From a virus, in IMG/VR virus record IMGVR_UViG_3300036715_002448, positions 1 through 64,000 of that record: a DNA stretch of 64,000 nucleotides, one strand, 5' to 3'. The position numbers and the translations under genes were made by a program. Position 1 is the first letter of the stretch. The number at the start of each line of letters is the position of its first letter. Shown piece by piece: positions 4,466 through 63,930 of this stretch. Under the pieces are notes generated by a model that worked only from the letters and a program-made list of their open reading frames with translations, was not told the DNA's origin and ran no database searches.

Positions 4466-4708
4466 TTAATCAGTTTTTATATATACATATACACTTTGTA
4501 CACCAAATCTTTCTCTAACCATTTTAATAGCCATTTTTGCTTTAAAGGTGTCTTCTAATTCAAATGTATTTCCATTTACTGTGTATTTAATACCATTTTC
4601 TTTTAAGTCAGAAATAAATGATTTTAAGGCTTTTGAAGATATCCAGCATTTAATGACACCTATTATTAGCTCATTTATAAATTCATTATATGATTTAAAA
4701 GTGCTCAT
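4466..4708 (-). CDS. Small leader-bearing protein
   Basis: This 80-residue protein opens MSTFKSYNEFINE, matching the leader consensus with a possible cut after INE. The remaining about 67 residues look like a compact alpha/beta domain (hydrophobic helix, beta hairpin, helix, final strand VQSVYVYIKTD). No known family is recognised. Its stop lies 9 bases before the kinase start at 4456, so the two genes are probably co-transcribed, with a promoter-like motif upstream at 4751-4768. Confidence 0.72.
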   Translation of the reverse strand: MSTFKSYNEFINELIIGVIKCWISSKALKSFISDLKENGIKYTVNGNTFELEDTFKAKMAIKMVRERFGVQSVYVYIKTD

Positions 4709-4750
4709 TTATTATTTTTAATTTCTTTAACAGTTTCTATTCAATTTAAG

Positions 4751-4768
4751 TTATTTATTTTATATATT
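4751..4768 (-). promoter_or_regulatory. Late-promoter-like motif
   Basis: Minus-strand AATATATAAAATAAATAA lies about 43 bases upstream of the ATG at 4708, in the gap between the small basic protein gene and the kinase group. Confidence 0.42.
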
Positions 4769-4829
4769 ATTTAAATAATTTTTATTGTCAAAATTGATAA
4801 ATTGTAATCATATATTATAGAAACGTCGA

Positions 4830-4946
4830 TCATTTTTTGTAAGATTTAAGGATTTCTGTATTGTGTTGTATTCTTTTTTCATTTTTTCTTCTGTTACTTG
4901 CATTAGCTTTTACTTTAGAAATTTTTCGTTTTCTTGTCTTTGCCAT
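4830..4946 (-). CDS. Very basic 38-residue protein
   Basis: A short frame starts at the ATG 4946-4944 and ends at a TGA at 4832-4830. The product starts MAKTRKRKISKVKANASNRR and has about 14 Lys/Arg and few acidic residues, so it could bind nucleic acid. It has no leader. The upstream A-rich tract (AAGAAAACTAAAATGG) is like those of neighbouring genes. It sits alone in an otherwise empty gap, which supports it being real, but it is short and no family is recognised. Confidence 0.5.
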   Translation of the reverse strand: MAKTRKRKISKVKANASNRRKNEKRIQHNTEILKSYKK

Positions 4947-5019
4947 TTTAGTTTTCTTATTTTATGTACAAATATAATAAAAAAGATTTAATACTGTAAA
5001 ACTTTTTATGTAGTTTATA

Positions 5020-5280
5020 CTATCTTTCCATTTCCCAAGTATAAGTAATAACCCATTGTAATGCTTGTTTAAGCAAACGTTGCATACGTGGGATTAGTTC
5101 TTTAACGTCAGGATGTTTAGATAGTTCTAACTCTAATTCTTTGTAATCTCTAATATCTCCTTTTTCAGTACCTATTTTTTTGTAAATTTCATAATATACT
5201 CTTCTTGTATCTGCATCCATTTGATCGGTGAATTTAGTTCCTTCATTTAGGAATTCTTCATAGTCTAATAAGTTTTTCAT
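5020..5280 (-). CDS. Small leader-bearing protein
   Basis: I take the ATG at 5280, not the in-frame ATG 30 bases upstream, because it gives the leader MKNLLDYEEFLNEG directly at the N-terminus as in the neighbours. The rest (about 72 residues) is mostly helical and charged, with an ELELSKHPDVKEL segment and a C-terminal ALQWVITYTWEMER. No family recognised. It starts 8 bases after the end of the next upstream leader gene, part of a long run of closely spaced leader genes. Confidence 0.75.
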   Translation of the reverse strand: MKNLLDYEEFLNEGTKFTDQMDADTRRVYYEIYKKIGTEKGDIRDYKELELELSKHPDVKELIPRMQRLLKQALQWVITYTWEMER

Positions 5281-5287
5281 GGTAGTA

Positions 5288-5473
5288 TTATTTTTTTCCT
5301 TTAAATTCAAGGGCTTTGTCTATTATAAAATATCCTTTGTCTGTATCTACAACCCAATGTTTTTCTTTTGCAGAAAAGAACACTGAATTAATTTTAGCAC
5401 CTGCAAAATCTGAAGGTTTTAATGCGCTTGCACCTTCTGATAAAAAATTTTCATAATTTGGTAAGTTTTTCAT
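5288..5473 (-). CDS. Very small leader-bearing protein
   Basis: A 61-residue protein starting MKNLPNYENFLSEG. After the predicted cleavage only about 47 residues would remain, forming a short beta-rich unit (INSVFFSAK...HWVVDTDKGYFIIDK). No family recognised. It is one of the shortest leader genes here, comparable in size to the mature T4 internal proteins. Confidence 0.7.
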   Translation of the reverse strand: MKNLPNYENFLSEGASALKPSDFAGAKINSVFFSAKEKHWVVDTDKGYFIIDKALEFKGKK

Positions 5474-5514
5474 ATTGATTTTATTTATTTATTTTATTTA
5501 GTAAGTCCATGTAG

Positions 5515-5697
5515 CTATTCGACGAAGGGAACAGATAAAGTCAATAAATTTTCTGCATCTTTTTTATATTCAGATGCTTTAAGTTTTTTAATTAAAATTT
5601 GGATGTCGTCTATCAAATTCAAAATTTCGGAATTAATAGAGTTTTCGTCGGGTTTGTCAGATGAAATGAATTCATCAATTGACTTTAAATTTTCCAT
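5515..5697 (-). CDS. Very small leader-bearing helical protein
   Basis: A 60-residue protein starting MENLKSIDEFISSDK, a diverged leader in which the expected Glu after FIS is replaced by SDK, so cleavage here is uncertain. The rest is acidic then helical (NSEILNLIDDIQILIKKLKASEYK). Function unknown. It starts 8 bases downstream of the nucleotidyltransferase gene and is probably co-transcribed with it. Confidence 0.65.
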   Translation of the reverse strand: MENLKSIDEFISSDKPDENSINSEILNLIDDIQILIKKLKASEYKKDAENLLTLSVPFVE

Positions 5698-5705
5698 AAA
5701 AGGTT

Positions 5706-6782
5706 TTATTTTAGTAGCTTCTTCACCAAAGGTACGTACTCTTCAACTAAAGATTTAATTTTATTAACTGCTTTAATTGCTAAATCAGAATATGCTTTAT
5801 CAAATTTAGGTGCAACCGCTGCTTTTTCCATTTTTAAAGTGTATCGATTAACAACAGCATTTAAAAATTCATTTGCAGATTTATATTTAACAGTTCCACC
5901 AAATTCACCCAATTGGTCTAATGTTTGAGCTAATAATTTTATACCTTCACATAAATCCTCTATTCTAGGATTATTTAGGTTCATTCCTTTCCAAGATTCA
6001 ATTGCTGTTGTATTTAAAGGTTTATCGGAACCTGAAAGTTCCCACATTAATTTAGCAATATCTTGCATGAAAGTTTGTATGTTTGCTGAGATAAGTTTAT
6101 CTTCAGTATCCTTTCTTTTAGAAAGTTCAACAATCTGATTTCCTATAAACTTAGCTCTTACTCCTCTTGCTTGAATAGAAATATCAAGAACTTCTCCGAG
6201 TGATGAATAAAGATTTCCCAATACAAAACCTTTTATATTTCTCATTGGGGTAAATCTAAATAAAGACCATGCAGCATATTCTTTATGGGTCATTACAAGA
6301 TCTACTTGTACCCATCCTTTTGTTTTTCCTTCAAGTTCTACTTCTACAATTAATTTAATGCCATTAATGCTTGACACTTTTTTAGTCTCAAGCAAGTCAA
6401 CTCCTTTATATTTTTCTGCTTCTAGCCACATTAACAATTCTTGATTGTATAATTTAGTAGTTGCAACTTCATCGTCACGTTCTTTACCATCCGTTAATTT
6501 AAGAGTAGGATAAGCTACCATATAATCAACATCTCCATAAAGTTTGTCAGGTTGATTTTTAATATCTTCTTTCCACCAAGTTCCACTTCCGATAGGACGT
6601 AAAAAATCCAGTGAAGGTAGTTCTAATTCTCTAAGATGTGAGTTAAAATCACTTGATAGTTTTTGAACAACATCATTAACTTTACCAATAACCTGTGGAG
6701 TTATGGGTGTTTCTTGAGTTTTAGTTGTAGAAAAACCACCTTCTAAAAGAGAAATAAATTCGTTGTATTTGTACAATGCCAT
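5706..6782 (-). CDS. Second leader-bearing Pol-beta-type nucleotidyltransferase
   Basis: The leader is MALYKYNEFISLLEGG. Residues 65-70 (GSGTWW) and the acidic pair DVD at 84-86 give the nucleotidyltransferase signature, with a third candidate acidic residue in the KGWVQVDLVM segment near residue 172. The 358-residue length leaves room for a helical C-terminal domain that may select substrate. It shares layout with the 2224-3138 enzyme (leader, GS...DxD, VQVDL), so the two are probably ancient paralogues, though sequence identity outside the motifs looks low. Substrate unknown; presence in the virion is inferred. Confidence 0.8.
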   Translation of the reverse strand: MALYKYNEFISLLEGGFSTTKTQETPITPQVIGKVNDVVQKLSSDFNSHLRELELPSLDFLRPIGSGTWWKEDIKNQPDKLYGDVDYMVAYPTLKLTDGKERDDEVATTKLYNQELLMWLEAEKYKGVDLLETKKVSSINGIKLIVEVELEGKTKGWVQVDLVMTHKEYAAWSLFRFTPMRNIKGFVLGNLYSSLGEVLDISIQARGVRAKFIGNQIVELSKRKDTEDKLISANIQTFMQDIAKLMWELSGSDKPLNTTAIESWKGMNLNNPRIEDLCEGIKLLAQTLDQLGEFGGTVKYKSANEFLNAVVNRYTLKMEKAAVAPKFDKAYSDLAIKAVNKIKSLVEEYVPLVKKLLK

Positions 6783-6797
6783 TTTAAAAATTGTTTT

Positions 6798-7346
6798 TTA
6801 AAGTATTTCATAAGATTCAGCATTAACTGAATTATCATCAAAATACTTTTTTAATTCTTGTTTTGTCAAGTTAGTAAATATCTTCAACATATAAACAAGG
6901 TCTTTATCCGCATAATGACGTCCTTTTTCTTTGCCTTCAAATTCGTAAGTATAACTTTCTATTTTATGTTGTGCTTTAGCAGCCCATAAATTAGTTTTTA
7001 ATATTTCTTCAGGTTCTCTATAAGTTCCATCTTCTATATAAAATTTTACTCTAAAAAAATGTGTAGCAGATTCATTAACAACAGATTCATCCATAGGAAT
7101 AAATTTTCCTTTATTAAAATCTGCAATAACTGCATTGTATATTTTTTCAAATCTTTTTTTGACAAGACCCTCTCTGTCATTAATTTTTTTTCTTAATTGA
7201 AAAAGTATTTCATTTGTGAAGTCTTTATCATTTTTATATTTTTTTGTTTTAACAAAAGAAATAATTTGGTCTAAGTAAGATTGGTCATCTGCTGTTATAA
7301 CATTTCCTTCATTTACAAAATTTTCAAATTCTGGTATGTTTTTCAT
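6798..7346 (-). CDS. Two-part leader-bearing protein
   Basis: It begins with the leader MKNIPEFENFVNEG. The first part (to about residue 95) is helical and lysine-rich. The string DESVVNES near residues 88-95 resembles an internal protease site and precedes a second module (FFRVKFYIEDGT...NLWAAKAQHKI) similar to the N-terminal module of the 3208-3924 product (FFAFWNG...LWDAKQKA). The shared module plus shared junction string suggests module shuffling between leader genes. Function unknown. Confidence 0.75.
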   Translation of the reverse strand: MKNIPEFENFVNEGNVITADDQSYLDQIISFVKTKKYKNDKDFTNEILFQLRKKINDREGLVKKRFEKIYNAVIADFNKGKFIPMDESVVNESATHFFRVKFYIEDGTYREPEEILKTNLWAAKAQHKIESYTYEFEGKEKGRHYADKDLVYMLKIFTNLTKQELKKYFDDNSVNAESYEIL

Positions 7347-7357
7347 ATTTATTATTT

Positions 7358-7882
7358 TTATTTTGAAAGTTTTACTATTTCCTTTTCAAGATCTGCAATT
7401 TGTCCTTTAACATGTTCTACAAAAAATTTAGCTGCTTTGTCAATTTCTTTTTTATTATAAATACCATATATTGGATATTTGTTAGAATAATTTGACTTAG
7501 GATCAAATATAGACAAACTAGTTCCTTCTAATTGAGCTGCTCCTAAACCATCCGCTAAGTCTGATTCAAAAAATGTATTAGGTTGAATAGAAATGCTATT
7601 ATTGTTAGAAACCAAATTAAATACGAATTCAATTAATGCTTTGTTGTCGTGATCTTTAGCTTTTGAATAATCTACTTTAGCATCAATAGTCAATTCATAT
7701 CCTGCATTATAAGGTTTAACTCTTGATACATAAGATTTAATTAAGTCTTTATCTAATAGTGATTTGTAAAATTTATCAACATCTTTTTGAATTTGAAAGA
7801 TTGCCGCTTTACAAGCACCTTGTGCTTTGATAACTTCGTTAGCTTCATTAAGGAATTGGTCGTAATCGAGTAAATTTTTCAT
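7358..7882 (-). CDS. Leader-bearing protein of unknown function
   Basis: A 174-residue protein with leader MKNLLDYDQFLNEA. The mature part has a helix, then a beta-rich central region (YELTIDAKVDYSKAK, SISIQPNTFF), and ends in a charged helix (QIADLEKEIVKLSK). No family recognised. It lies 11 bases before the next leader gene in the same orientation. Confidence 0.75.
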   Translation of the reverse strand: MKNLLDYDQFLNEANEVIKAQGACKAAIFQIQKDVDKFYKSLLDKDLIKSYVSRVKPYNAGYELTIDAKVDYSKAKDHDNKALIEFVFNLVSNNNSISIQPNTFFESDLADGLGAAQLEGTSLSIFDPKSNYSNKYPIYGIYNKKEIDKAAKFFVEHVKGQIADLEKEIVKLSK

Positions 7883-7888
7883 TTAAAT

Positions 7889-8719
7889 TTAATTATTTTG
7901 TGCAGTTATTTGGTCAAGTTTTACTTGCAATTTTTGAATTTCTTTTTCTAAATTCTTTTTTCTTGTTTGTTTACTATCAATGTTCATTTTTTTCCAAAAA
8001 TCAACAAGGTGCTGTCTGTATTCATCCATTTCAGCTTCCCATTGTTTTTTTGTTTTTTCTTGTCTTGCATAAGAAGTAGGATCCAGTTCTTCCCAAGTTC
8101 TATTAAAAACCCATTTTTTATCTGGTTCTTCCTCAATAATCTGATTTTTTACAGCTTCATAACTTGTTATTTTAGTATTAATAGCAAGATCTGCATCTAT
8201 TTTTTCAATATCTCTAACAAAATAAGAAATTTCTTTTGCAATCTTTTCCGCTTTCGACATTCTTTTAATTTTGTCTTGGTAAGCTTTTGATATTGTTGAA
8301 TTACCTGTTTTAGGTAAGGTTGTTTTAGTTATATATCTATAGTGCAAATGTTGGATATTATATCCACCTGCATAAATAACTTCAGTATTGAATGGGTAAA
8401 CAGTTTCATCGCGTTGTATTTGAGCTGAAATTTCAAGAGAGTCTTTAGGACCTCTGAAAGTATTTATTGAAATTAACTTATCAGTAGGTTTTGTAAACTT
8501 TTCAATAGAAGATACCATGTCATAAACAAGGCCTAATCTAACACTTGTTCTTGTGAAATTTGACCAAGGGTGATAGTGCTCAGGGTCATTTTGTTTTTCA
8601 CGAGTTTCAATACGATTTAAAAGGTCTTCAATAGTTTCTTCAAGAGTATCTAATATAACAGTAACAATGTTTTCTGTTGAATTAGCAACATGTTCATGAT
8701 ATGTTAGAAAAGTGCTCAT
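7889..8719 (-). CDS. Protein with diverged leader and C-terminal coiled coil
   Basis: The N-terminus MSTFLTYHEHVANST follows the leader pattern loosely (Y-x-E, then V-A-N) but lacks the usual F and final Glu, so processing is doubtful. A central region with HYHPW and WVFNRTWEELDP is followed by a strongly charged coiled coil from about residue 225 to the end (TRKKNLEKEIQKLQVKLDQI). No family recognised. It heads a chain of leader genes running to 5020 and has no obvious promoter motif upstream. Confidence 0.7.
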   Translation of the reverse strand: MSTFLTYHEHVANSTENIVTVILDTLEETIEDLLNRIETREKQNDPEHYHPWSNFTRTSVRLGLVYDMVSSIEKFTKPTDKLISINTFRGPKDSLEISAQIQRDETVYPFNTEVIYAGGYNIQHLHYRYITKTTLPKTGNSTISKAYQDKIKRMSKAEKIAKEISYFVRDIEKIDADLAINTKITSYEAVKNQIIEEEPDKKWVFNRTWEELDPTSYARQEKTKKQWEAEMDEYRQHLVDFWKKMNIDSKQTRKKNLEKEIQKLQVKLDQITAQNN

Positions 8720-8784
8720 AATGAATTAGTTTTAATTATACTACAAATATAATACCTTTTATTGAAACTTGAAAATTATTTAAG

Positions 8785-9160
8785 TTAAAAGTTCATCATA
8801 TCATTTAATAACTTGTAACTAAAATTACCTGACATAATAGGTCTTGTGGGTTTTGAATAATCTAACGAAACAGGAAATAACCAAAGAAAAAGTTTGCCAT
8901 CTTTAGTAAATTCTATTTCAATTTTTCGTCCTCCTGCATCATATTAAATACCCATGGATGGAACTATTTTATTTGGATATCTGTCATACTTCTTTAACAT
9001 ATAATCCATATATCAACAATTACTTTATTGATTATTGTGAAGTTCCACGAAAGATTGAATTGCTTTCTTATCCATTAAAATCAGTACCTACCAAATGTCT
9101 CATGTCTCATTTAGTAAAACCTTCTTCTAAAAAATCATCAAATGATTGTATATTTTTCAT
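8785..9160 (-). pseudogene. Decayed leader-bearing gene
   Basis: An ATG at 9160-9158 begins MKNIQSFDDFLEEGFTK and then meets TGA. Downstream coding recurs in other frames and ends with a coherent segment, GGRKIEIEFTKDGKLFLWLF onward, closing with a stop at 8787-8785. Several frameshifts and stops separate the pieces. The start sits 2 bases from the end of the intact leader gene at 9162-9479, as in functional neighbours. This is a former leader gene broken in place. Confidence 0.7.
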
Positions 9161-9161
9161 A

Positions 9162-9479
9162 TTAAATTCCTGTTATTTGGTTCTCGTAAAATTTATCAGG
9201 CCTTACATTAATAAATACATTGTTTTTAGCATTTAATATTTGCCTTAACATATTTTCTACCCCGATTGTATTGCGTGGGAATTTTCTATTGTGCATACCA
9301 GCAACTAATAACCATTTTGGTAAATTGTCAGCTCCCATATAGTCTCCTAAATTGTCTATAAAATCTTGTATATCAGAATTATCAAATTCAATAATTTTTC
9401 CACCATAAATAGTAACTTCTATTTTTTTATTAGTAGAACTTTCTGTTAAAAAGTCATCATAAGATTGTAAATTTTTCAT
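9162..9479 (-). CDS. Small leader-bearing protein
   Basis: A 105-residue protein with leader MKNLQSYDDFLTES. The mature part starts with a beta hairpin (KIEVTIYGGKIIEFDN), then acidic helices (DIQDFIDNLGDYMG) and a C-terminal region containing FINVRPDKFYE. No family recognised. It follows a decayed leader gene and precedes another, so it may be a surviving copy in a region of turnover. Confidence 0.73.
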   Translation of the reverse strand: MKNLQSYDDFLTESSTNKKIEVTIYGGKIIEFDNSDIQDFIDNLGDYMGADNLPKWLLVAGMHNRKFPRNTIGVENMLRQILNAKNNVFINVRPDKFYENQITGI

Positions 9480-9672
9480 TGTATAATTTTTTTTTAAAGT
9501 ATCCGTATATTGTTTTACCTTTTTCTAAAAGTTCATTGGACATACCTCCATCAAGTATATTATGCATTACCATCTATAGTTTACAAATTTTATAGCTTTG
9601 GTAATAGTTGTTATTTTTTTTTAGCTCCTCGAGTTCCTTAATTTAAAAATTCATTGAAATTTTTTAAACCTT
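9457..9672 (-). pseudogene. Second decayed leader-bearing gene
   Basis: Minus-strand coding just after the NMNAT-like gene reads EGLKNFNEFLN, then TAA where the leader Glu is expected, then GTRGAKKK. The A9 tract there shifts frame, and a later frame gives MVMHNILDGGMSNELLEKGK and ends at a TGA at 9459-9457, inside the start of the next gene. No start codon remains. I read this as a leader gene lost through start loss, a nonsense change and a frameshift. Confidence 0.5.
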
Positions 9673-9678
9673 CTGTTT

Positions 9679-10257
9679 TTATAAGTATTTTTTTAATTCA
9701 TCATAGTATTGGTGAACTGATTTAGGTGTCAATTTTTCAAATTCTGCTTTATTATCAGTAGCTATAGATTCTCTCACCTTTGTTCCAGATGGACCTCCTT
9801 GAACCCTTTCATCAACAACTTTCATAATAAAAGGTTCTGTTACAGGAACATCTGATCTTTCTGAGTTGATGTAATTTAATTGGGAAATATAAGATTTTTC
9901 ACGATCAGAACCACAAGCCATACTAATAGGATTGTAACCTTTATCCCTTAACCATTTAACAATTTGTGGAATTACTGTCAATTTTCCTTGTGGGTACAAT
10001 TCAAATGCTTCAATAAATTTAAATTCTTTAGCTACTGAATTTCCAATTTTTTCTAGTAAAGATTCAGGGAAAGGAGACTTTTCATTTTTTGAAATTATTT
10101 GTACAGGAATAACGTTTAAGTTGTATTCCTTAGAAGCTCTTTCAAAAGCAGCAACATGGCCATTATGCACGGGTTGATAACGGCCCGGGAATATCACAAC
10201 ACGTTCCCCAGTTATTGATTCGCAAAGGAATTGGGTATATGTAGGTAAGTTTTTCAT
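9679..10257 (-). CDS. Leader-bearing NMNAT/cytidylyltransferase-like enzyme
   Basis: After the leader MKNLPTYTQFLCES comes FPGRYQPVHNGH at residues 23-34, the nucleotide-binding HxGH motif (here HNGH) of the nucleotidylyltransferase superfamily. GPSGTKVRES near residues 155-165 corresponds to the ISxTxxR motif. These enzymes join an NTP to a phosphorylated substrate, for example NMN + ATP to NAD. The 192-residue length suits a single catalytic domain. NAD synthesis at the start of infection would be an attractive role, for instance against NAD-depleting defences, but the true substrate cannot be read from the sequence. Confidence 0.82.
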   Translation of the reverse strand: MKNLPTYTQFLCESITGERVVIFPGRYQPVHNGHVAAFERASKEYNLNVIPVQIISKNEKSPFPESLLEKIGNSVAKEFKFIEAFELYPQGKLTVIPQIVKWLRDKGYNPISMACGSDREKSYISQLNYINSERSDVPVTEPFIMKVVDERVQGGPSGTKVRESIATDNKAEFEKLTPKSVHQYYDELKKYL

Positions 10258-10263
10258 AATTAT

Positions 10264-10575
10264 TTAATTATAGTAGTATTGGTATTGAAATTGTCCTTGA
10301 ATTTGACTACCATCCATTATATTAAAACTATTTAGTATTGAATATACATCGGATGAAGTTATGCCTTGTTTGGAAAGCCTTTCACTTAAAAATCTTTTAA
10401 ATGATTTTGCTCTTTTTTCAGCGGCTTTAATAGAATCAAATTCTTCTTCAAGAATAGTTAGTATGAGTTCTTTTGTGTTGTTTTTTAAAAAATAGTTAAA
10501 TGTTATGTAATACTTTAACGTTTTTATAGAAAAAGACTCATTCAAAAATTCATCAAATGTTTTTAAATTTTGCAT
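10264..10575 (-). CDS. Small leader-bearing helical protein
   Basis: A 103-residue protein with leader MQNLKTFDEFLNES. The mature part is largely helical (ILTILEEEFDSIKAAEKRAK, then SFKRFLSERLSKQG) and ends with a Gln/Tyr-rich tail (QIQGQFQYQYYYN). No family recognised. It starts 9 bases after the stop of the upstream leader gene. Confidence 0.73.
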   Translation of the reverse strand: MQNLKTFDEFLNESFSIKTLKYYITFNYFLKNNTKELILTILEEEFDSIKAAEKRAKSFKRFLSERLSKQGITSSDVYSILNSFNIMDGSQIQGQFQYQYYYN

Positions 10576-10584
10576 ATTAAAATA

Positions 10585-11007
10585 TTAATTTACTGTGTTA
10601 AAAAATTTAGTTAAAATATCTGCCATTTCTTTATCAGTGTATGTTTTTCCAGCTTCTAATTCTTCTAAATTGGATGCTTTAACTGCTTCTGGGAATTTAT
10701 TATTAAAATGATTAACTTTCCAAGAATCTTTTTTGTTATTCCATTCCATATCAAAATTAGCCATCCCTAAGTTAGGATACGTTTCTTTGTCAAAAAATTG
10801 AACTCTTGGAAATGTTTTAGAGTCAGGGTCATAATAAACTGCTACACTTACGTGAGCGGTTGTTGTCCTATTTGACTTAATAGACATTATTATTTTCCCT
10901 CCTAATTTAGTAGTTTTTTTAGCATTTCCATATATGACATGTCCTAATGTAATACTATCTAATAAGCCTTCATTTAGGAATTCATCATAAGATTTTAAGT
11001 TTTTCAT
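10585..11007 (-). CDS. Leader-bearing protein of unknown function
   Basis: A 140-residue protein whose leader MKNLKSYDEFLNEG is the consensus form. The mature part is beta-rich (GGKIIMSIKSNRTTTAHVSV, then AVYYDPDSKTFPRVQFFD), followed by helical segments with an acidic LEELEAGKTYTDKEMADIL. Function unknown. Confidence 0.75.
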   Translation of the reverse strand: MKNLKSYDEFLNEGLLDSITLGHVIYGNAKKTTKLGGKIIMSIKSNRTTTAHVSVAVYYDPDSKTFPRVQFFDKETYPNLGMANFDMEWNNKKDSWKVNHFNNKFPEAVKASNLEELEAGKTYTDKEMADILTKFFNTVN

Positions 11008-11017
11008 TATTCATAAA

Positions 11018-11329
11018 TTATTTCGTTTTCCAAGAACCTAATACCATAATCATGTGAAGTACTATATTTCCATTGATTTTTTTATATTTCTTAACAAATC
11101 GGTTTGCTAAAGCAACTACTTCTTTTTTAAGTTCATTATCAAGTACTGCATCTGACAATGGATTTTTTTTCCATTCTTTGAACATAGCATTCGTTACCAT
11201 TTTAACATCACTCATCCATTCATCCCACTCTCCTTCAGCAGCTTCTTTATTATCATAGTATTCTACATCATATTTTGTCCAAGCCGTTTCTAGTAAAGAG
11301 TATTCTTCAAATGATTCTAAATTTTTCAT
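11018..11329 (-). CDS. Small protein with diverged leader
   Basis: A 103-residue protein starting MKNLESFEEYSLLETA, in which the usual F-L-N-E is replaced by Y-S-L-L-E; L-L-E still fits an L-x-E protease rule. The mature part is helical and rich in Trp (EGEWDEWMSDVKMVTN, FKEWKKNPLSD). No family recognised. About 100 bases with no feature separate it from the ParB-like gene upstream, apart from that gene's possible readthrough extension. Confidence 0.72.
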   Translation of the reverse strand: MKNLESFEEYSLLETAWTKYDVEYYDNKEAAEGEWDEWMSDVKMVTNAMFKEWKKNPLSDAVLDNELKKEVVALANRFVKKYKKINGNIVLHMIMVLGSWKTK

Positions 11330-11433
11330 ATTTTGTTTTTTATTTTTATTTAATTTTATGTTTAATACTATTTTATGTTTAATTAATCAAAAACTTATTT
11401 TTCAATTAATTTAAAGTCTGATTCATTTCCTAC

Positions 11434-12210
11434 TTATTCATTAACAAAATCGGAAAATTTCATAAATGTGCTTTCTGTTGCGTAAGGAGCTCTAACATCA
11501 ATTTTTCCTGCTGCTAAAATTTTTCCTACCATTTGAACTTGATTTGGTTTTATTTTAGGCATATCTGCACGTGGAGGTGCACCTGCTGGAGGTCCATTTC
11601 TTTTAATAAGCATTAAAGCATTTTGAACTTTGTGTTCTCCTTGTTTTTCAAACCATTTAATGGCTTTTTCTTTGTCGAAGTATTTTTTATCCATCCATTC
11701 ACCTTCGTATATACATTTTTTAACATCATCCAAAGTTGCAACAAAAATGCTAATATCACCACCTTCTGGTGGAAGTCCTCTTTTGTTTCCAAGTGCATCA
11801 CCAGCGGCTCTAAGAACAGGAATAAGGTCTCCAATGTTTAAATCTACCCTAAGTCCTTCAACTTTTGCATTTGCATTATTGAAAATAGTAGCAGCCCATC
11901 TATGATGACCATCTAAAATTCTATTATCTTTTGAAATAACAGCTTGTAAATCGCCACCTTCAACACCACTTATTGCCATACTTAATGCTTTGCCTAAATA
12001 AACTGCATCTTGGGAAGCTTTTAATGATTTAGCAGGAATTCCTATTTCTTTAGTATACACAACATCATCATGTGCACTACCATCTTGTTTTCCTTTTATA
12101 AAAAACTCATTTTCATCACCTTTAAATGGATCTGGAAATTCTCTTGGATTAACTTCTTTTGTGGGAAGAGCTTCGTTTAAAAAGTCTTCAAATTTTTGTA
12201 ATTTTGCCAT
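11434..12210 (-). CDS. Leader-bearing ParB/sulfiredoxin-fold-like protein
   Basis: The leader is MAKLQKFEDFLNEA. A ParB-like motif, ILDGHHRWAA, lies near residues 97-106 after the strand LQAVISKDNR; in ParB and sulfiredoxin-like proteins this kind of motif binds nucleotide or acts on nucleic acid. A Pro-rich linker (GPPAGAPPRADMP) follows. The protein ends FMKFSDFVNE, itself a leader-like string, right at the stop. After the TAA the same frame continues for 12 codons (VGNESDFKLIEK) to another TAA. So the gene may have gained a premature stop, or the tail is a C-terminal targeting signal. The exact activity is unknown. Confidence 0.78.
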   Translation of the reverse strand: MAKLQKFEDFLNEALPTKEVNPREFPDPFKGDENEFFIKGKQDGSAHDDVVYTKEIGIPAKSLKASQDAVYLGKALSMAISGVEGGDLQAVISKDNRILDGHHRWAATIFNNANAKVEGLRVDLNIGDLIPVLRAAGDALGNKRGLPPEGGDISIFVATLDDVKKCIYEGEWMDKKYFDKEKAIKWFEKQGEHKVQNALMLIKRNGPPAGAPPRADMPKIKPNQVQMVGKILAAGKIDVRAPYATESTFMKFSDFVNE

Positions 12211-12488
12211 TTTATTTTTTTATTTATTTTTCCCAACCCATACGAGTTAAGAGTTCCATCATGTTTTACTTCAGGAAAACTATCATCGTTAAAAAGAGTA
12301 GAAAAATGTTCACCTTTATCAAGATAGTAAATTTTATCGCCAACAATGGCGTGAGCATACCTATCTTCCATGTCTCTAAAAAAATTACTTTTTCTACCAG
12401 AAATTATTATATTTCTTGAATTTGAATAATCGACAATTGGTCCTAGTTTCTCATTCAAAAAATTTTCATAAGATTTTAAATTTTTCGT
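12177..12488 (-). CDS. Leader-bearing small protein with ACG in place of ATG
   Basis: The frame gives a full leader, KNLKSYENFLNEKLGP, but the codon in the start position (12488-12486) is ACG. The upstream gene stops there as TAACG, where a TAATG stop/start overlap would be expected. Either ACG serves as a coupled start or the start has been lost by a T-to-C change. An internal TTG start would remove the leader and is unlikely. The product (about 103 residues) is soluble with no known motif. Its 3' end overlaps the start of the ParB-like gene by 34 bases. Confidence 0.6.
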   Translation of the reverse strand, partial: TKNLKSYENFLNEKLGPIVDYSNSRNIIISGRKSNFFRDMEDRYAHAIVGDKIYYLDKGEHFSTLFNDDSFPEVKHDGTLNSYGLGKINKKIKWQNYKNLKTF

Positions 12489-12802
12489 TATGTCAACTTT
12501 AATTTTTTTAATACAGAATACGGAACTATTGAGTCATCACTTATTGGAATTCCAACGTGTTTTTTATCATCCGCAAAGTCTGCTTGAAAAACATTGGAAC
12601 TATTTCCAACTTGTCCTTGAAAAATACATTTTGTTACATATTCATCTTTACCTGTTACAGATCTTCCAATAGAACTACCGCTTCCATCGCTTGCTCTTTT
12701 GATATAAAGATAAATTTCATCGCCTGCATGTAATTTATGCCAATCTGGTTTAGTTGTTGTTGATTCATTTAAGAATTCATCAAATGTAATTAGTTTTTTC
12801 AT
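12488..12802 (-). CDS. Small leader-bearing protein
   Basis: A 104-residue protein with leader MKKLITFDEFLNES. The mature part is beta-rich (DEIYLYIKRASDGSGSSIG, CIFQGQVGNSSNVFQADF), perhaps a small barrel. Its first base overlaps the stop of the membrane protein gene upstream, and its stop overlaps the ACG start position downstream, so translation is probably coupled along this stretch. Function unknown. Confidence 0.74.
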   Translation of the reverse strand: MKKLITFDEFLNESTTTKPDWHKLHAGDEIYLYIKRASDGSGSSIGRSVTGKDEYVTKCIFQGQVGNSSNVFQADFADDKKHVGIPISDDSIVPYSVLKKLKLT

Positions 12803-13167
12803 TATATTTTAGTTTTTTTCTTTAGGCTTATAACTTCTTTCATTAACTTATTTAAAGTTTTTTGAATTTCTTTAATGTCTTCATCATCTTCATCATTGTC
12901 TTCGTCTACACTTTCTTGAATATCTTCAAGGTCATTAGCTACATCTTGTAATTTTTTACTTTGTGAGTTAACACTCATTTGTATAAAAATCGAAAGATAA
13001 ATAGCTTCTAAAGACACTATCAAAGTTATAACAAGTAGAATAGTGTTTTTATCAAAAATGTTTAAGAAGTACAAAAAAAATCCAGCAATAAACAATATAG
13101 TATGAATTATGAGAGAACTTACGGAACCTATCCAATATATTATAGCAAATGCTATTTTCTCTATCAT
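12802..13167 (-). CDS. DUF1003-like membrane protein without leader
   Basis: A 121-residue protein with two hydrophobic segments (about residues 5-33 and 42-65). The string SLEAIYLSIFIQMSVNSQSK resembles the core of DUF1003 and low-affinity iron-permease-like membrane proteins, where it is followed by a cytoplasmic helix. Here an acidic stretch (DEDNDEDDEDIKE) and a coiled coil follow. It is the one gene in this run that lacks the leader, so it probably acts in the host membrane rather than the head. The family call is from memory of the motif and moderate. Confidence 0.68.
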   Translation of the reverse strand: MIEKIAFAIIYWIGSVSSLIIHTILFIAGFFLYFLNIFDKNTILLVITLIVSLEAIYLSIFIQMSVNSQSKKLQDVANDLEDIQESVDEDNDEDDEDIKEIQKTLNKLMKEVISLKKKTKI

Positions 13168-13179
13168 ATTCCATATTGT

Positions 13180-13902
13180 TTATTTTAATTCTTTTTGTTT
13201 ATTAATAGTTGCTTTCAATTCAGATATAAACTCATTTTTACCAAGCTTATCACCATAATGTCCAGATCTAAATATTGGATTAGATGATACATCTACAACG
13301 TATGAAGTAGGACCACCTCCTTCATCAGTGATAGCATCAAAATTAAAGGTATATCTAGTATCATTAATAACTATTTCTGTTTTATAACCAATTGTCCATT
13401 TCCTACCATTTCTATCCATAGCATCTTTACCTTCCTGAGTAATTGCATAACCATTATGAGGTAGATAAATAATGTCGCATCCTTCTTTTATAACTGCTCT
13501 AGAAATGTCACCTACAAAACGATTTTGTAATTTTTTACCCGCGAGTTTTGTCATTTTTTCAACATAATTAGTAGGTACATCAGTTGCATCATAAAGGTTT
13601 TGTATTTCTTCTGGAGTAGCACCTAATTCAATAGCTTTATTACCTAATTTATTAAAATAACCATCATAAGATTTCCAGTTTATGTTATAATTTAACGGTG
13701 CGTTAGAAAGTTTTAAACCTGTTACAAAACGATACATTGCTTTATTTTTATCTGTTATAAGCTTAGCAGCTTTTTCACCATCGTCATGTTTCATAACTAA
13801 ATCTAACATACGGTCCCAGTCTTTGTTGGAAATGCCAGCTGCTTCATTAAGTATATCAAATGATTCGGCTAAGAATTCATCAAATGTTTGTAAGTTTTTC
13901 AT
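13180..13902 (-). CDS. Leader-bearing protein of unknown function, 240 aa
   Basis: It begins MKNLQTFDEFLAES, followed closely by a second possible site (DILNEA). The mature protein is alpha/beta with a Lys/Asp-rich N-terminal half and a beta-rich C-terminal half (TEIVINDTRYTFNFDAITDE, TSYVVDVSSNP). No catalytic motif is recognised. It sits directly downstream of the split ligase-like gene pair and may share its transcript. Confidence 0.75.
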   Translation of the reverse strand: MKNLQTFDEFLAESFDILNEAAGISNKDWDRMLDLVMKHDDGEKAAKLITDKNKAMYRFVTGLKLSNAPLNYNINWKSYDGYFNKLGNKAIELGATPEEIQNLYDATDVPTNYVEKMTKLAGKKLQNRFVGDISRAVIKEGCDIIYLPHNGYAITQEGKDAMDRNGRKWTIGYKTEIVINDTRYTFNFDAITDEGGGPTSYVVDVSSNPIFRSGHYGDKLGKNEFISELKATINKQKELK

Positions 13903-59982: not shown

Positions 59983-61473
59983 TTATTTTTCGAATTTTAT
60001 TCCCATGTGATTATTACCTTTAGCTTCTCTTGGGTTATATTCACCGTCAAAACTAGAACAAGTAAAAGTTTTGTAAGGATTTATACTTACACCAAGAATT
60101 TCCATAAATTTACGATTTACTAAAAATTTAGTACTTTTATCAGTTCTATCAACTAATGATACTAATACATTTTTATACCTTTTACCTAAAAATACAACAT
60201 CCATTTCAATTATTGGCCTTTCGTGTACATTAGGTCCTACTTCAGCATTAGAAATTCCTACTACTTTACTTGTAAAATGTTTTCCATTAATAGACCATTC
60301 AACAGTTTTCTTATTATCTGAAACTTCCATTTTATCATAAGTCATTGAACAAGAAATAGCACCATTACCTGTATCAAATTTGGCTACAAATTCACCAATT
60401 CCTGGAACTTGAACAACTTCACGGAATCCAATAACTTTTCTTGAACGAATCCAGTTAGACTTATCGGTAAAATAGTCAATTATATTTTTAACCACATCTA
60501 TTCCTGTAGCATCTTTAAGTCCTTGTGTACCTGGTGAAGAATTAACTTCTAACACGTAATTTTGTTTTGATTTTTTATCAACAATAATATCTACACCAGC
60601 CCAATTACATCCAACTGCCCTCGCTGCATCAATTGCCATTTGTGATTGCTCTGGTGTTATTTTAACCTTTTCTGCTTTTCCACCTAAAGAAACATTTGTA
60701 CGAAAATCTTTATCAATTTTATTTCTACGCATAAAACCTAAAACAACAGAGTCATCTTCAGAAGGTTTTGGTGAATTAAATTTACGAGTAAGAACATGTA
60801 TTCTTAAATCATAGTCGGAGTCAATTTTTTCTTGAATAAGAGTTTCGATATCTGCGTCAACTTTCCAAAGTGTTTGAAGAACTGATTTAAGAGAAGCTTC
60901 CGATTCAATAACAGAAACACCAATACCATGTGAACCAGATAACATTTTAAGAATAACTGGAAATTTTCCACCTATTTTTTTAACAGCTCCATCGATAGAG
61001 TCCTCCCCGTTGATTAGCGCTGTTCTTGGTGTTTGAATTCCGGAATTTTCTAGGATTTTTGCAGTAACCCATTTATTTTCACAATTTAAAGTAGATTGTA
61101 AAGTATTAACTACAAAGAAATTTAAGTCTTCTAATCTTTCTACTAAGTCACGTGTACGAGTATTTCTTACAATACCGCGGCGTGTTAAAATTGCTGTATA
61201 ATCTGAATCAATTTTTACAGAATTTTCTTTATCTGCTAAAAGTAATCCACCATTTTTTAAAATTGTTAAAGTTGCTGTATTAATATCAATTACATAAAAA
61301 GGAATTCCTCTAGAATCACATTCCTTTTTAACAGCAGGAACAGTATAAGATTCTTCGCTAACATTTGATAAAAGAACAATTTCTGCTTTTTGTTTTTTAG
61401 AAGCATTTGTTTTTTTTACAGTATTTATTGCTTCATTTACAAACTCGTCATAATAGTTAAATTTATTTTTCAT
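59983..61473 (-). CDS. Leader-bearing RimK ATP-grasp ligase fused to RimB-type protease domain
   Basis: The leader is MKNKFNYYDEFVNEA. Residues about 45-340 form a RimK-like ATP-grasp: FPVILKMLSGSHGIGVSVIE (ATP-binding Lys and Gly-rich loop), DFRTNVSLGGKAEKV, and NYVLEVNSSPGTQGL (metal-binding E-x-N). From about residue 350 a second domain has EFVAKFDTGNGAIS (catalytic Asp 367 in D-T-G), HERPIIEMDVVFLG and LVSLVDRTDKSTKFLVNRKF, matching the RimB retropepsin-like family. RimK adds Glu tails to ribosomal protein S6 and RimB removes them. A packaged enzyme could alter host ribosomes or other proteins at once. Confidence 0.85.
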   Translation of the reverse strand: MKNKFNYYDEFVNEAINTVKKTNASKKQKAEIVLLSNVSEESYTVPAVKKECDSRGIPFYVIDINTATLTILKNGGLLLADKENSVKIDSDYTAILTRRGIVRNTRTRDLVERLEDLNFFVVNTLQSTLNCENKWVTAKILENSGIQTPRTALINGEDSIDGAVKKIGGKFPVILKMLSGSHGIGVSVIESEASLKSVLQTLWKVDADIETLIQEKIDSDYDLRIHVLTRKFNSPKPSEDDSVVLGFMRRNKIDKDFRTNVSLGGKAEKVKITPEQSQMAIDAARAVGCNWAGVDIIVDKKSKQNYVLEVNSSPGTQGLKDATGIDVVKNIIDYFTDKSNWIRSRKVIGFREVVQVPGIGEFVAKFDTGNGAISCSMTYDKMEVSDNKKTVEWSINGKHFTSKVVGISNAEVGPNVHERPIIEMDVVFLGKRYKNVLVSLVDRTDKSTKFLVNRKFMEILGVSINPYKTFTCSSFDGEYNPREAKGNNHMGIKFEK

Positions 61474-62020
61474 TATTTCGTTTAATATATTTTATAATTT
61501 TTTTATTTTGTCTTAAAATTTTTTCTTTTATTTCCGCAGTAAATCTATAAGATGAATCAACAATTTTACTATTAATTTCTTTACTATCTTTTATATAAGT
61601 TTCAAAACACTTGTCACAAGTAAAATTCCTTGCCGTAATTTGATTTATTTTTGAAATTATTGGTTTGTTACAATACGCACAATGCCATGGATATTCTTTA
61701 TATGTTCTTTTTATATATTCTTTAGATGATACTTCTTTTGTTTCAGGATTGAAATAAATTCTATTAATTTTTTGGTATTTTAAATTTTCTCTTTCTATCT
61801 TAAAAATACATTTAAGAAACAAATCATCCTCTAAATACTTAGCTATTACTTTGTTATAATCAAGTATCATTTTATAAGAAGTAGGAATACCAACTAATGA
61901 TATTCCATGTTTTGATTTGCTTCCTTTTATTTTCTTTTTAACTATAGTAACATTACCAATACGAATAGAACCAGTACCAAATTGGTTGCCATATTTAATC
62001 CAACTATTATTGTTAGCCAT
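61463..62020 (-). CDS. Zinc-ribbon protein of unknown function
   Basis: A 185-residue basic protein without leader. WHCAYCNKPIISKINQITAR followed by NFTCDKCFETY (about residues 111-140) gives two C-x2-C pairs, a likely zinc ribbon. The basic C-terminus (KIIKYIKRNNEK) could bind nucleic acid. Both ends overlap the neighbouring genes by 8-11 bases, indicating translational coupling with the RimK-like gene. Confidence 0.68.
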   Translation of the reverse strand: MANNNSWIKYGNQFGTGSIRIGNVTIVKKKIKGSKSKHGISLVGIPTSYKMILDYNKVIAKYLEDDLFLKCIFKIERENLKYQKINRIYFNPETKEVSSKEYIKRTYKEYPWHCAYCNKPIISKINQITARNFTCDKCFETYIKDSKEINSKIVDSSYRFTAEIKEKILRQNKKIIKYIKRNNEK

Positions 62021-63395
62021 AAATCATTAAATCATCAAGTTGTTTTCCTATATCATTTATTATAAAATCAGTGGTTAACGTTTCCATTTCTAATTCTAGT
62101 AAAAGTGTGTGAATTTCATCCATTGTTACACCTTCATTTTTTGCCGACTCTATTTTATTTCGTAATGCGGCCATTTTGCTAGCTAATTCATTTCTTCCAG
62201 CTTGTACAGTTTTAAAAGTATCATGTAATTGGGCTATTTCCTTTTCGCTTAATTTGCCCATTGCTTTAGAATCACTCATCGTATTAGTTAATTCTTTAAG
62301 TTTTTTAGCAAGATTATCCTTTTTAACTCTTAAAACAGCATGTTCGTTTCTTAATGATTTAATTTCATCCGTATCTTTATCATCTTCTTTTTCTGCATAA
62401 ATATCTCTTTGGTCAGTTGGTTTTATTTTTTTAGCGGCTTCTATTTCATCAGCTTTATCTTTAGCTTCTTTATCTAATTTTTCTGCCTCTTCTCTTTTAG
62501 ATTTATCTCCAGGAGATTCTTCTAATTTGTTTTCTTGTTTTCCGGTTTCTTCAGGTTTTTTAATAGAGCTACCATTGCTGGCATTACCAGCTTCATTATT
62601 TATAACTGATATATCATTTGAATTAGTTTCTGTTTTACCTCTTTTATCTACTTCAGCCTCATTTTTTTCAGATTCACCAAGTTTTTTTTTCGCTTCCTCT
62701 AATCGAGATGTTATTTCCCTTAGTGATTCATTACTTATATGAGCCTTCGACAATTCTTGTAAAAATTTTACTTTGTATTTAAGTTTTTTAGATGTTATAT
62801 ATGCTTTTAAATATGGATTTTCATCCTCTGTCATAGCATTTAAAAAATCTATTTGAGCTTTAATAGAATAAGAATTTGATTTTTGCAATTTCTTGTATTT
62901 GTCCTCCAAAGTTTTAACAACTTCCTTTAACGATTCTATTTTTTTAGTTTCACGGTCAGACGGTTCTTCATCTTTATTAGGACCAGTAGTTCCTTTAGGT
63001 TCTTCATCTTTATTAGGACCAGTAGTTCCTTTAGGTTCTTCATCTTTATTAGGACCAGTAGTTCCTTTAGGTTCTTCATCTTTATTAGGACCAGTAGTTC
63101 CTTTAGGTTCTTCATCTTTATGTGATAATGCTTTTTTCTTTTTTCTTAATACATATAATGCATTATCTATTGATTTATTCTTTTTTGCAATAGCAGGATT
63201 TCTTCCAGGATTTTTTTGTTTTTTAGATATTAAACTAGCTATTTTATCATCTAAGCTATCTTCCGATTCAAAAAGTACTCCTTCACATAATAATTCTTGG
63301 ATTATTTCTAATTCTTTTTGTTCAGAAAGTTCATAAGACTCAAATAAAATTCGGTCATATTCTTTTATTAAAAAATTACTTAATTGTTCTTTCAT
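62013..63395 (-). CDS. Charged coiled-coil protein with tandem 12-residue repeats
   Basis: A 460-residue, very hydrophilic protein. Four copies of DEEPKGTTGPNK lie near residues 92-139, then a long charged coiled coil (residues 150-445), rich in Glu and Lys. The N-terminus (MKEQLSNFLIKEYDRILFES) is only weakly leader-like. Composition is like phage head scaffold/core proteins, which are helical and highly charged, but no direct similarity is seen. The repeats are in phase and probably vary in number. Confidence 0.68.
   Translation of the reverse strand: MKEQLSNFLIKEYDRILFESYELSEQKELEIIQELLCEGVLFESEDSLDDKIASLISKKQKNPGRNPAIAKKNKSIDNALYVLRKKKKALSHKDEEPKGTTGPNKDEEPKGTTGPNKDEEPKGTTGPNKDEEPKGTTGPNKDEEPSDRETKKIESLKEVVKTLEDKYKKLQKSNSYSIKAQIDFLNAMTEDENPYLKAYITSKKLKYKVKFLQELSKAHISNESLREITSRLEEAKKKLGESEKNEAEVDKRGKTETNSNDISVINNEAGNASNGSSIKKPEETGKQENKLEESPGDKSKREEAEKLDKEAKDKADEIEAAKKIKPTDQRDIYAEKEDDKDTDEIKSLRNEHAVLRVKKDNLAKKLKELTNTMSDSKAMGKLSEKEIAQLHDTFKTVQAGRNELASKMAALRNKIESAKNEGVTMDEIHTLLLELEMETLTTDFIINDIGKQLDDLMIYG
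62962..63121 (-). repeat. 36-bp tandem repeat, four full copies plus partial
   Basis: The 36-base unit starting ggttcttcatctttattagg is repeated without visible change from 62962 to 63105, with a 16-base partial copy after. It encodes DEEPKGTTGPNK on the minus strand. Perfect identity points to recent expansion by slippage or recombination. Confidence 0.93.
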
Positions 63396-63411: not shown

Positions 63412-63930
63412 TTATCTCCAAGTTGGTATTAAATTTGACAATCCAGGTAATTCAGTTCCTTCTAATTTAGCAATTTGTGCTTTTTTATCTGCTATATCTA
63501 AAAACATTTCTAATTCTTTTTTATGCATATCGTAAATATGTTGTAATGCAGCTTTTGCTTTTCCTCTAGTAAAAAGATACATTAAATATTTAAAAGCACC
63601 ACCTGTAGCTTTGGTTGTTTTTTTAATAACAGAAGCTCCGGCATTAAATACAGATGATGCATCCAAGTCTCCAATTGGAACTGATCCACTACTTCCTCGT
63701 TCATTTAATGCTTCATAATTTTCTTCAAAACTTTCTAACAAATAATTCATAGTAGAGTTACTTATAGATTCAGTCATAATACCTGACGCCGAATACTGTG
63801 TAAGCATCAAATAATTAATAAGTTCTTTCATTTCATCTGTCGTAGGTTTGTATTGATATTGACTACAAAGTTTAGAAAATTGGCTTATATCCATTTGTAG
63901 GCCAATTATAAGTGAGGGTTTTGCAAACAT
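63412..63930 (-). CDS. Protein of unknown function, possible structural
   Basis: A 172-residue protein. The start at 63930 (MFAKPSLIIGLQMDISQFSK) follows a late-type motif; an ATG at 63894 is an alternative. The middle has GSSGSVPIGDLDASS, the C-terminal half is helical (KAALQHIYDMHKKELEMFLD). IMTES, LLES and LNE-type strings occur, but no leader. No family recognised. It lies upstream of the repeat-containing protein and may share a transcript with it. Confidence 0.63.
   Translation of the reverse strand: MFAKPSLIIGLQMDISQFSKLCSQYQYKPTTDEMKELINYLMLTQYSASGIMTESISNSTMNYLLESFEENYEALNERGSSGSVPIGDLDASSVFNAGASVIKKTTKATGGAFKYLMYLFTRGKAKAALQHIYDMHKKELEMFLDIADKKAQIAKLEGTELPGLSNLIPTWR

Follow-up and report, generated by a model that had tools for sequence, protein, structure and literature searches.

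Viral record IMGVR_UViG_3300036715_002448 of the IMG/VR database, 94163 bases long, encodes a protein, here termed K-B, in which a capsid-targeting-type leader precedes a RimK-type ATP-grasp ligase domain and a retropepsin-like domain of the RimB/Rlo type. We analyzed the first 64,000 nucleotides of this record (henceforth the window), which contain the K-B gene at positions 59983 to 61473 (Table 1), and compared the gene with relatives found in viral and genome scans. The reading we favor, with moderate confidence, is that K-B is a protein-modifying enzyme which a T4-like, jumbo-phage-related phage packages in its capsid and ejects into the host, where it acts on a host protein. The components of this reading differ in strength: the presence of ligase and retropepsin folds is close to certain, and packaging through the leader is highly probable. 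The broader proposal of a virion-delivered writer-and-eraser of amino-acid (probably poly-glutamate) tails, operating before phage gene expression in many marine T4-like and jumbo phages, is tentative.

In the proposed sequence of events, residues 1–14 would bring K-B into the prohead core, as the leader sequence and the T4 analogy suggest, and the prohead protease would cut the leader after Glu14, a position suggested by conservation and, again, by T4. The mature RimK–retropepsin protein would stay in the head and enter the host with the DNA, in analogy to T4 internal proteins and in line with a particle-associated homologue. Inside the host, the RimK domain may extend the C-terminus of a host protein with amino acids, probably glutamates, at the expense of ATP, as RimK biochemistry suggests. 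The RimB-type domain could trim or cut such tails and may stimulate the ligase, judging from RimB biochemistry.

K-B combines a RimK-family ligase with a retropepsin-like domain

A first-pass annotation, made from the sequence alone, had named the leader, the RimK part and the RimB part, and all three names held up in Pfam and NCBIfam searches, profile and fold comparisons, and leader conservation; the motifs it pointed out, EVNSSPG (residues 309–315) and KFDTGNG (containing D367), are present. Pfam RimK matches residues 132–334 of the single sequence (E 4.9e-38), and NCBIfam rimK_fam (TIGR00768) matches residues 44–334 with 166 bits, above the family cut-off of 143.4. All 39 aligned rows share K176, D222, R224, R250, R258, N260, D295, E309 and N311, and we take Lys176, Asp295, Glu309, Asn311 and others to have the catalytic roles known from RimK. 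An AlphaFold2 model of the full-length protein, built from 39 aligned sequences, has a mean pLDDT of 84.8, with low values in the leader region, and its best Foldseek matches are RimK structures, including 5zk6 (RimK with RpsF).

None of the more specific equivalog cut-offs was reached by the ligase: MptN scored 132 bits against 350, LysX 108 against 275.6, and S6–L-glutamate ligase (NF007764) 99 against 331. Sequence comparison thus places the ligase in the RimK family, with neither the amino acid nor the acceptor fixed by any equivalog. Ribosomal protein S6, and with it the host ribosome, had been put forward as the target in the first-pass annotation; this remains a guess, and because the S6-ligase cut-off was missed so widely, we do not accept S6 as an established target and consider it unlikely to be the modified protein.

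The same scores bear on an alternative in which the RimK-fold ligase has another product and no protein acceptor: it would join a different amino acid or make a free peptide (e.g., poly-alpha-glutamate) or a small molecule. Passage of the generic family cut-off without any equivalog fits this alternative, as do reports that a bacterial RimBK hybrid gave no RpsF glutamylation and that poly-glutamate synthesis by RimK is stimulated by RimB (PMC11957791). Protease kin of the fused domain are, however, reported to cut poly-glutamate (PMC11957791, PMC12239564), which speaks for Glu chains, be they attached to a protein or free. We regard a ligase without a protein acceptor as rather unlikely and retain the modification of a host protein as the working model.

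As a single sequence, the C-terminal domain gave weak matches: 15.7 bits to Zn_protease/PF05618, below the cut-off of 27, and an E value of 9e-8 to RloA2. NCBIfam cut-offs for the Rlo equivalogs were missed (RloA2 36.4/250, RloA3 19.8/210, RloA1 18.6/280), and the NCBIfam RimB model matched just 8 of 36 family members at E 0.01. A profile built from 36 phage C-terminal domains, in contrast to the single sequence, found PDB entries 9g59 (E 1.2e-10), 9g58 (1.6e-7) and 2pma (1.6e-6), with the DTG motifs aligned. Because the Foldseek results of the full model were filled by RimK matches, the domain was folded and searched by itself (pLDDT 89.1). The resulting model is closest to RloA2 (9g59; Z 14.8, rmsd 2.6, 120 aligned residues), the DUF785 structure 2pma (Z 14.5, rmsd 2.7, 122 aligned) and RloA (9g58; Z 14.0, rmsd 2.6, 121 aligned), followed by retroviral-type proteases with Z values of at most 7.8; Foldseek of the isolated domain likewise put 9g59, 2pma and 9g58 on top. 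Profile and fold matches together place the modeled domain among retropepsin-like domains of the PF05618 kind, which holds RimB and Rlo, and bear out the fold on which the first-pass reading of this domain depended.

Alternatively, the C-terminal domain could be a binding or regulatory module instead of an active protease. RimB is reported to bind RimK and to stimulate its poly-glutamate synthesis (PMC11957791), and the active site is degraded in two loci of a 592–593-aa subfamily, L072 and L083, which are the exceptions to DTG conservation. Against such a module, all 39 aligned rows carry D367, and T368 and G369 are retained in 37 rows each; we judge it unlikely that the domain lacks protease activity. 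The opposing activities envisaged in the first-pass annotation are plausible as a pair, with two qualifications: RimB has also been reported as a stimulator of RimK (PMC11957791), and the protease is lost or degraded in two phage lineages that retain the ligase.

A conserved leader of the capsid-targeting type

The leader of K-B reads MKNKFNYYDEFVNE/A (slashes mark the actual or presumed cut), and T4 IPIII, taken from its own record, starts MKTYQEFIAE/A. In T4, a 10-residue capsid-targeting sequence directs proteins into the prohead core and is cut off by gp21 (PMC10229621, PMC9958956), and such prohead proteases cleave after Glu (PMC5694885). For counting, we used a leader pattern that was written after leaders had been seen and was slightly altered between counts. 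Within the first 20 amino acids it occurs in 20 of the 110 open reading frames (ORFs) of the 94-kb record versus 17 of 2100 internal 20-mers, which argues that the leader is not due to chance.

Conservation was assessed on 79 loci, reduced to 40 representatives by removal of near-duplicates and to 37 with complete N-termini by leaving out three that are open at the 5' end. The pattern fits 33 of these 37. Of the 37 rows that have a residue in leader column 14, 36 show Glu, and in 23 Ala comes next; the leader is kept in proteins of ~35% identity (KFNEYITE/E, KFREFISE/A, FKDYLTE/A). In phage Mosig, the pattern fits 4 of 187 called ORFs, and by eye the sole real leader is that of the K-B protein; in the marine T4-like branch, K-B is possibly the chief internal protein with a leader, or even the only one.

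RimK proteins of the cyanophages S-RIM8 and S-RIM12 have no leader, the domain beginning right at the N-terminus. As a further control, 38 loci from cellular genomes were sorted by rule, 28 of them as having RimK only (including the truncated L096, the degraded L090 and the phage-like L100). In this crude control the pattern occurred in 2 of the 28 (L116 and L122), by eye within the domain in both cases; the rule did not catch the leader of L100, which comes after a TTG instead of an ATG. An earlier, poorer control gave 9 fits among 80, two of which (L092 and L100) looked real by eye.

Ligase and leader are the constant parts of the family

The viral scan yielded 473 relatives among 599 candidate stretches, of which 80 were kept; the genome scan yielded 133, of which 80 were kept and 38 of those looked at more closely. 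The open-ended L020 and L028 were dropped from the rows of A2, and L072, L083 and L014 from those of A3. In the tree, a single branch (support 100/97) unites all 53 phage-type rows and leaves out the 18 cellular and 2 cyanophage RimK rows; the cellular rows were hand-picked and several have long branches, as the tool warned. The protein of phage Melnitz, which has no RimB domain and keeps the leader (MTQKFSQFITE), falls within the phage branch, so its protease was probably lost and its leader retained, which makes ligase and leader the constant parts. As judged from these sequences, the protease has been lost or degraded in at least two lineages.

RimK-only genes that keep the leader were observed at L176:82-1131 (phage Melnitz, beside a translational regulator gene) and L100:1457-2524. 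A K-B subfamily of ~590 aa (L072:7731-9509, L083:7734-9515 and L090) has a decayed DTG motif (FDSDK or FDDNK) and extra C-terminal sequence: a ligase whose protease is probably dead.

By rule, 10 of the 38 cellular-genome loci are K-B genes; most of them lie on short contigs of metagenome-assembled genomes and look phage-like. On two long contigs filed under Firmicutes (L098, 410 kb, and L099, 400 kb), the K-B genes stand in phage-like surroundings, and in L098 a gene soon after K-B starts MKNLNHYISE/A; these contigs are possibly misbinned large phages. Joint acquisition of RimK and RimB from a bacterial RimBK protein is unsupported, since the phage fusion has its domains in reverse order and its ligase forms a separate branch.

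A particle-associated homologue and the site of action

A homologue in phage YerA41, 33.7% identical over residues 1–472, is YerA41_066, annotated as a structural protein. In the YerA41 study, g112 ('Ribosomal protein modification protein') carries the asterisk for identification in particles by liquid chromatography–tandem mass spectrometry and has middle expression (PMC7354516, Table 3). Gene order equates g112 with YerA41_066: the ribonucleotide reductase subunits g109/g110 correspond to 063/064, and the dCTP deaminase g114 to 068, annotated as dUTP diphosphatase. The YerA41 gene follows ribonucleotide reductase genes. Four genes past it, at L003:10803-11177, lies YerA41_070, annotated by its depositors as a 'mono-ADP-ribosylating toxin'.

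Several observations weigh against K-B as a packaged enzyme acting on a newly infected host. The YerA41 particle preparation also held replication and transcription enzymes (PMC7354516), so carry-over is possible. The leader pattern fits one of the 194 called ORFs of YerA41 and is absent from its K-B protein; the leader argument therefore does not extend to this phage, and in view of the other enzymes in the preparation, the detection supports virion association of the family and not the role of the leader. Four of the complete representatives (L016, L030, L072 and L083) do not fit the pattern, and the RimB domain is degraded in L072 and L083 and absent from Melnitz and L100. Finally, the Mosig gene lies outside the head operon, beside the genes for regA, a translation repressor, and DNA polymerase, a site that, like middle-phase transcription in YerA41, also fits action inside the producing cell.

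This last point defines a further alternative, in which the enzyme acts mainly in the producing cell, mid-infection, on translation or amino-acid metabolism, and packaging is incidental. Middle expression in YerA41 (PMC7354516) and the placement beside a translational repressor gene in both Mosig and Melnitz speak for it. It leaves unexplained, however, why a leader persists at ~35% identity, why 33 of the 37 complete representatives have it and why the cyanophage RimK and cellular RimK proteins inspected do not, and we think it improbable that the producing cell is the main site of action. Delivery into the next host remains our preferred reading, and its first step, the packaging already assumed in the first-pass annotation, finds good support in the leader, the prohead protease, the head operon and the particle-associated homologue.

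Genomic setting

Upstream of the K-B gene and close to it, the same strand of the record encodes a portal protein, a head maturation protease and the major head protein, and a prohead protease is also among the annotated genes of Mosig and YerA41. The closest relative of the major head protein is from a 462-kb uncultured phage (55%), followed by Lak phages (~35%). Judged by ORF sizes, the order major head protein (~540 aa), ~190 aa, Lys/Glu-rich protein, ~165 aa and K-B recurs in 9 of 11 related loci. The 148-aa protein encoded downstream matches nothing in Pfam or PHROG.

Table 1. Coordinates of the K-B gene, its parts and neighboring genes (window positions unless stated otherwise).
Feature	Position	Strand	Remarks
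K-B gene (leader, RimK-type ATP-grasp ligase, RimB/Rlo-type retropepsin)	59983..61473	(-)	496 aa, ATG start
Capsid-targeting-type leader, residues 1-14 (MKNKFNYYDEFVNE)	61432..61473	(-)	Cleavage predicted between E14 and A15
RimK-family ATP-grasp ligase domain, residues ~31-338	60460..61383	(-)	
EVNSSPG motif, residues 309-315	60529..60549	(-)	E309 and N311 in 39/39 aligned rows
Retropepsin-like domain, PF05618/DUF785 (RimB/Rlo) kind, residues ~345-474	60052..60441	(-)	
Catalytic DTG, residues 367-369	60367..60375	(-)	Within KFDTGNG
Next downstream gene, 148 aa	59527..59973	(-)	Leader MENFLRFSDFVNE/S
Cys-pair (HNH/zinc-like) protein	61463..62020	(-)	Directly upstream, 11-base overlap with K-B start; syntenic in relatives
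Lys/Glu-rich scaffold-like protein	62013..63395	(-)	Variable length, leader-like N-terminal stretch; syntenic
172-aa protein	63412..63930	(-)	Between major head protein and Lys/Glu-rich protein; syntenic
Major head protein	Record 64696-66321		Beyond the window
gp21-type prohead (head maturation) protease	L006:4723-6555		phrog_207, E 2.5e-42

The Lys/Glu-rich protein (62013-63395) contains tandem repeats of DEEPKGTTGPNK, and its counterparts in syntenic loci range from 365 to 915 aa. We considered it as a ready RimB substrate and dropped the idea because the longest Glu run in four measured neighbors is 2–4; five consecutive Glu were found in none of the ORFs of the record that were checked. 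We hold it distinctly unlikely that K-B works inside the prohead or virion, glutamylating or trimming phage core proteins during head maturation instead of host proteins: the gene's place in a conserved head operon near a scaffold-like protein and the targeting of T4 leaders to the prohead core (PMC9958956, PMC10229621) would agree with this, but the gene is located elsewhere in Mosig and YerA41, the measured Glu runs do not exceed four where five Glu suffice for RimB (PMC11957791), and ATP would presumably be scarce in a DNA-filled head.

Elsewhere in the window, positions 4466-13902 hold a run of small minus-strand ORFs, 12 by pattern, with a near-identical leader (e.g., MKNLKSYDEFLNE/G), a candidate battery of packaged proteins. 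Eight of these ORFs were scanned against Pfam, with a match in 9679-10257 alone. This ORF encodes a leader-bearing cytidylyltransferase-like protein (Pfam CTP_transf_like, E 4.6e-6; phrog_3041, E 2.3e-12), possibly a packaged nucleotide enzyme.

Implications and comparison with known systems

If K-B acts as proposed, it would represent virion-delivered protein modification other than the ADP-ribosylation by Alt. Reports of phage RimK genes date back to 2008, with no setting for their action; a conserved leader and a homologue in particles turn this into a sharp, testable claim, namely that the enzyme is active from the outset of infection. Mosig on Pelagibacter and YerA41 offer tractable systems in which to ask whether phages reshape host translation or other pathways through glutamate tails, and the variants that lack a working protease form a natural experiment on the importance of either half. 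What seems new is the conservation of the leader, its setting in a head operon in this phage group, the connection with a homologue detected in particles and the fact that some lineages have lost the protease. A literature search of titles and abstract openings, with most subscription journals outside its reach, found no tie of phage RimK to a capsid-targeting leader.

The RimK–protease fusion itself has been on record since 2008, when Monier et al. described more than 100 marine contigs with phage-like RimK, several with a C-terminal DUF785 domain, and proposed a role in host translation resembling S6 phosphorylation by a T7 kinase (PMC2530865). Their proteins agree with K-B in domain order and in belonging to T4-like marine phages, one occurrence is flanked by regA as in Mosig, and the two sets very likely form one family. 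Unlike the present account, the accessible text of that paper is silent on a leader, on packaging and on a protease function; haloarchaeal RimK with C-terminal DUF785 is also noted there (PMC2530865).

The first-pass annotation had stated that RimK and RimB are separate in bacteria, which is often so, but fused RimBK proteins exist. Such hybrids, from Desulfotalea psychrophila and others (Little et al. 2025, PMC11957791), share with K-B a RimB-type retropepsin and a RimK in one chain, and bacterial RimBK is proteolytically active on poly-Glu RpsF. They differ in that RimB is N-terminal, whereas K-B runs from RimK to RimB, and in being chromosomal, with no capsid leader described in the accessible text (PMC11957791). 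The closest structural match to the C-terminal domain, the Pseudomonas retropepsins RloA and RloA2, cut poly-Glu; unlike K-B they are secreted, single-domain proteins with signal peptides, and the RloA operon has a separate ATP-grasp protein (PMC12239564). The cyanophage 'ribosomal protein S6 glutaminyl transferase' of S-RIM8 and S-RIM12 is also a phage RimK, but at 292–296 aa it consists of RimK alone, has no leader and groups with cellular RimK in the tree.

In its presumed route, K-B most resembles the T4 internal proteins IPII and IPIII and Alt, which are packaged in the head with a short N-terminal propeptide that gp21 removes (PMC9958956, PMC5694885). K-B likewise has a short leader ending at a predicted Glu cleavage site, and a gp21-type prohead protease is encoded alongside. 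The mature T4 proteins are unrelated to it, having neither an ATP-grasp nor a protease domain. T4 nevertheless supplies precedents for delivery and for action on the host: IPI is injected with the DNA, and Alt is carried in the head as an enzyme and modifies the RNA polymerase of the host (PMC9958956, PMC5694885).
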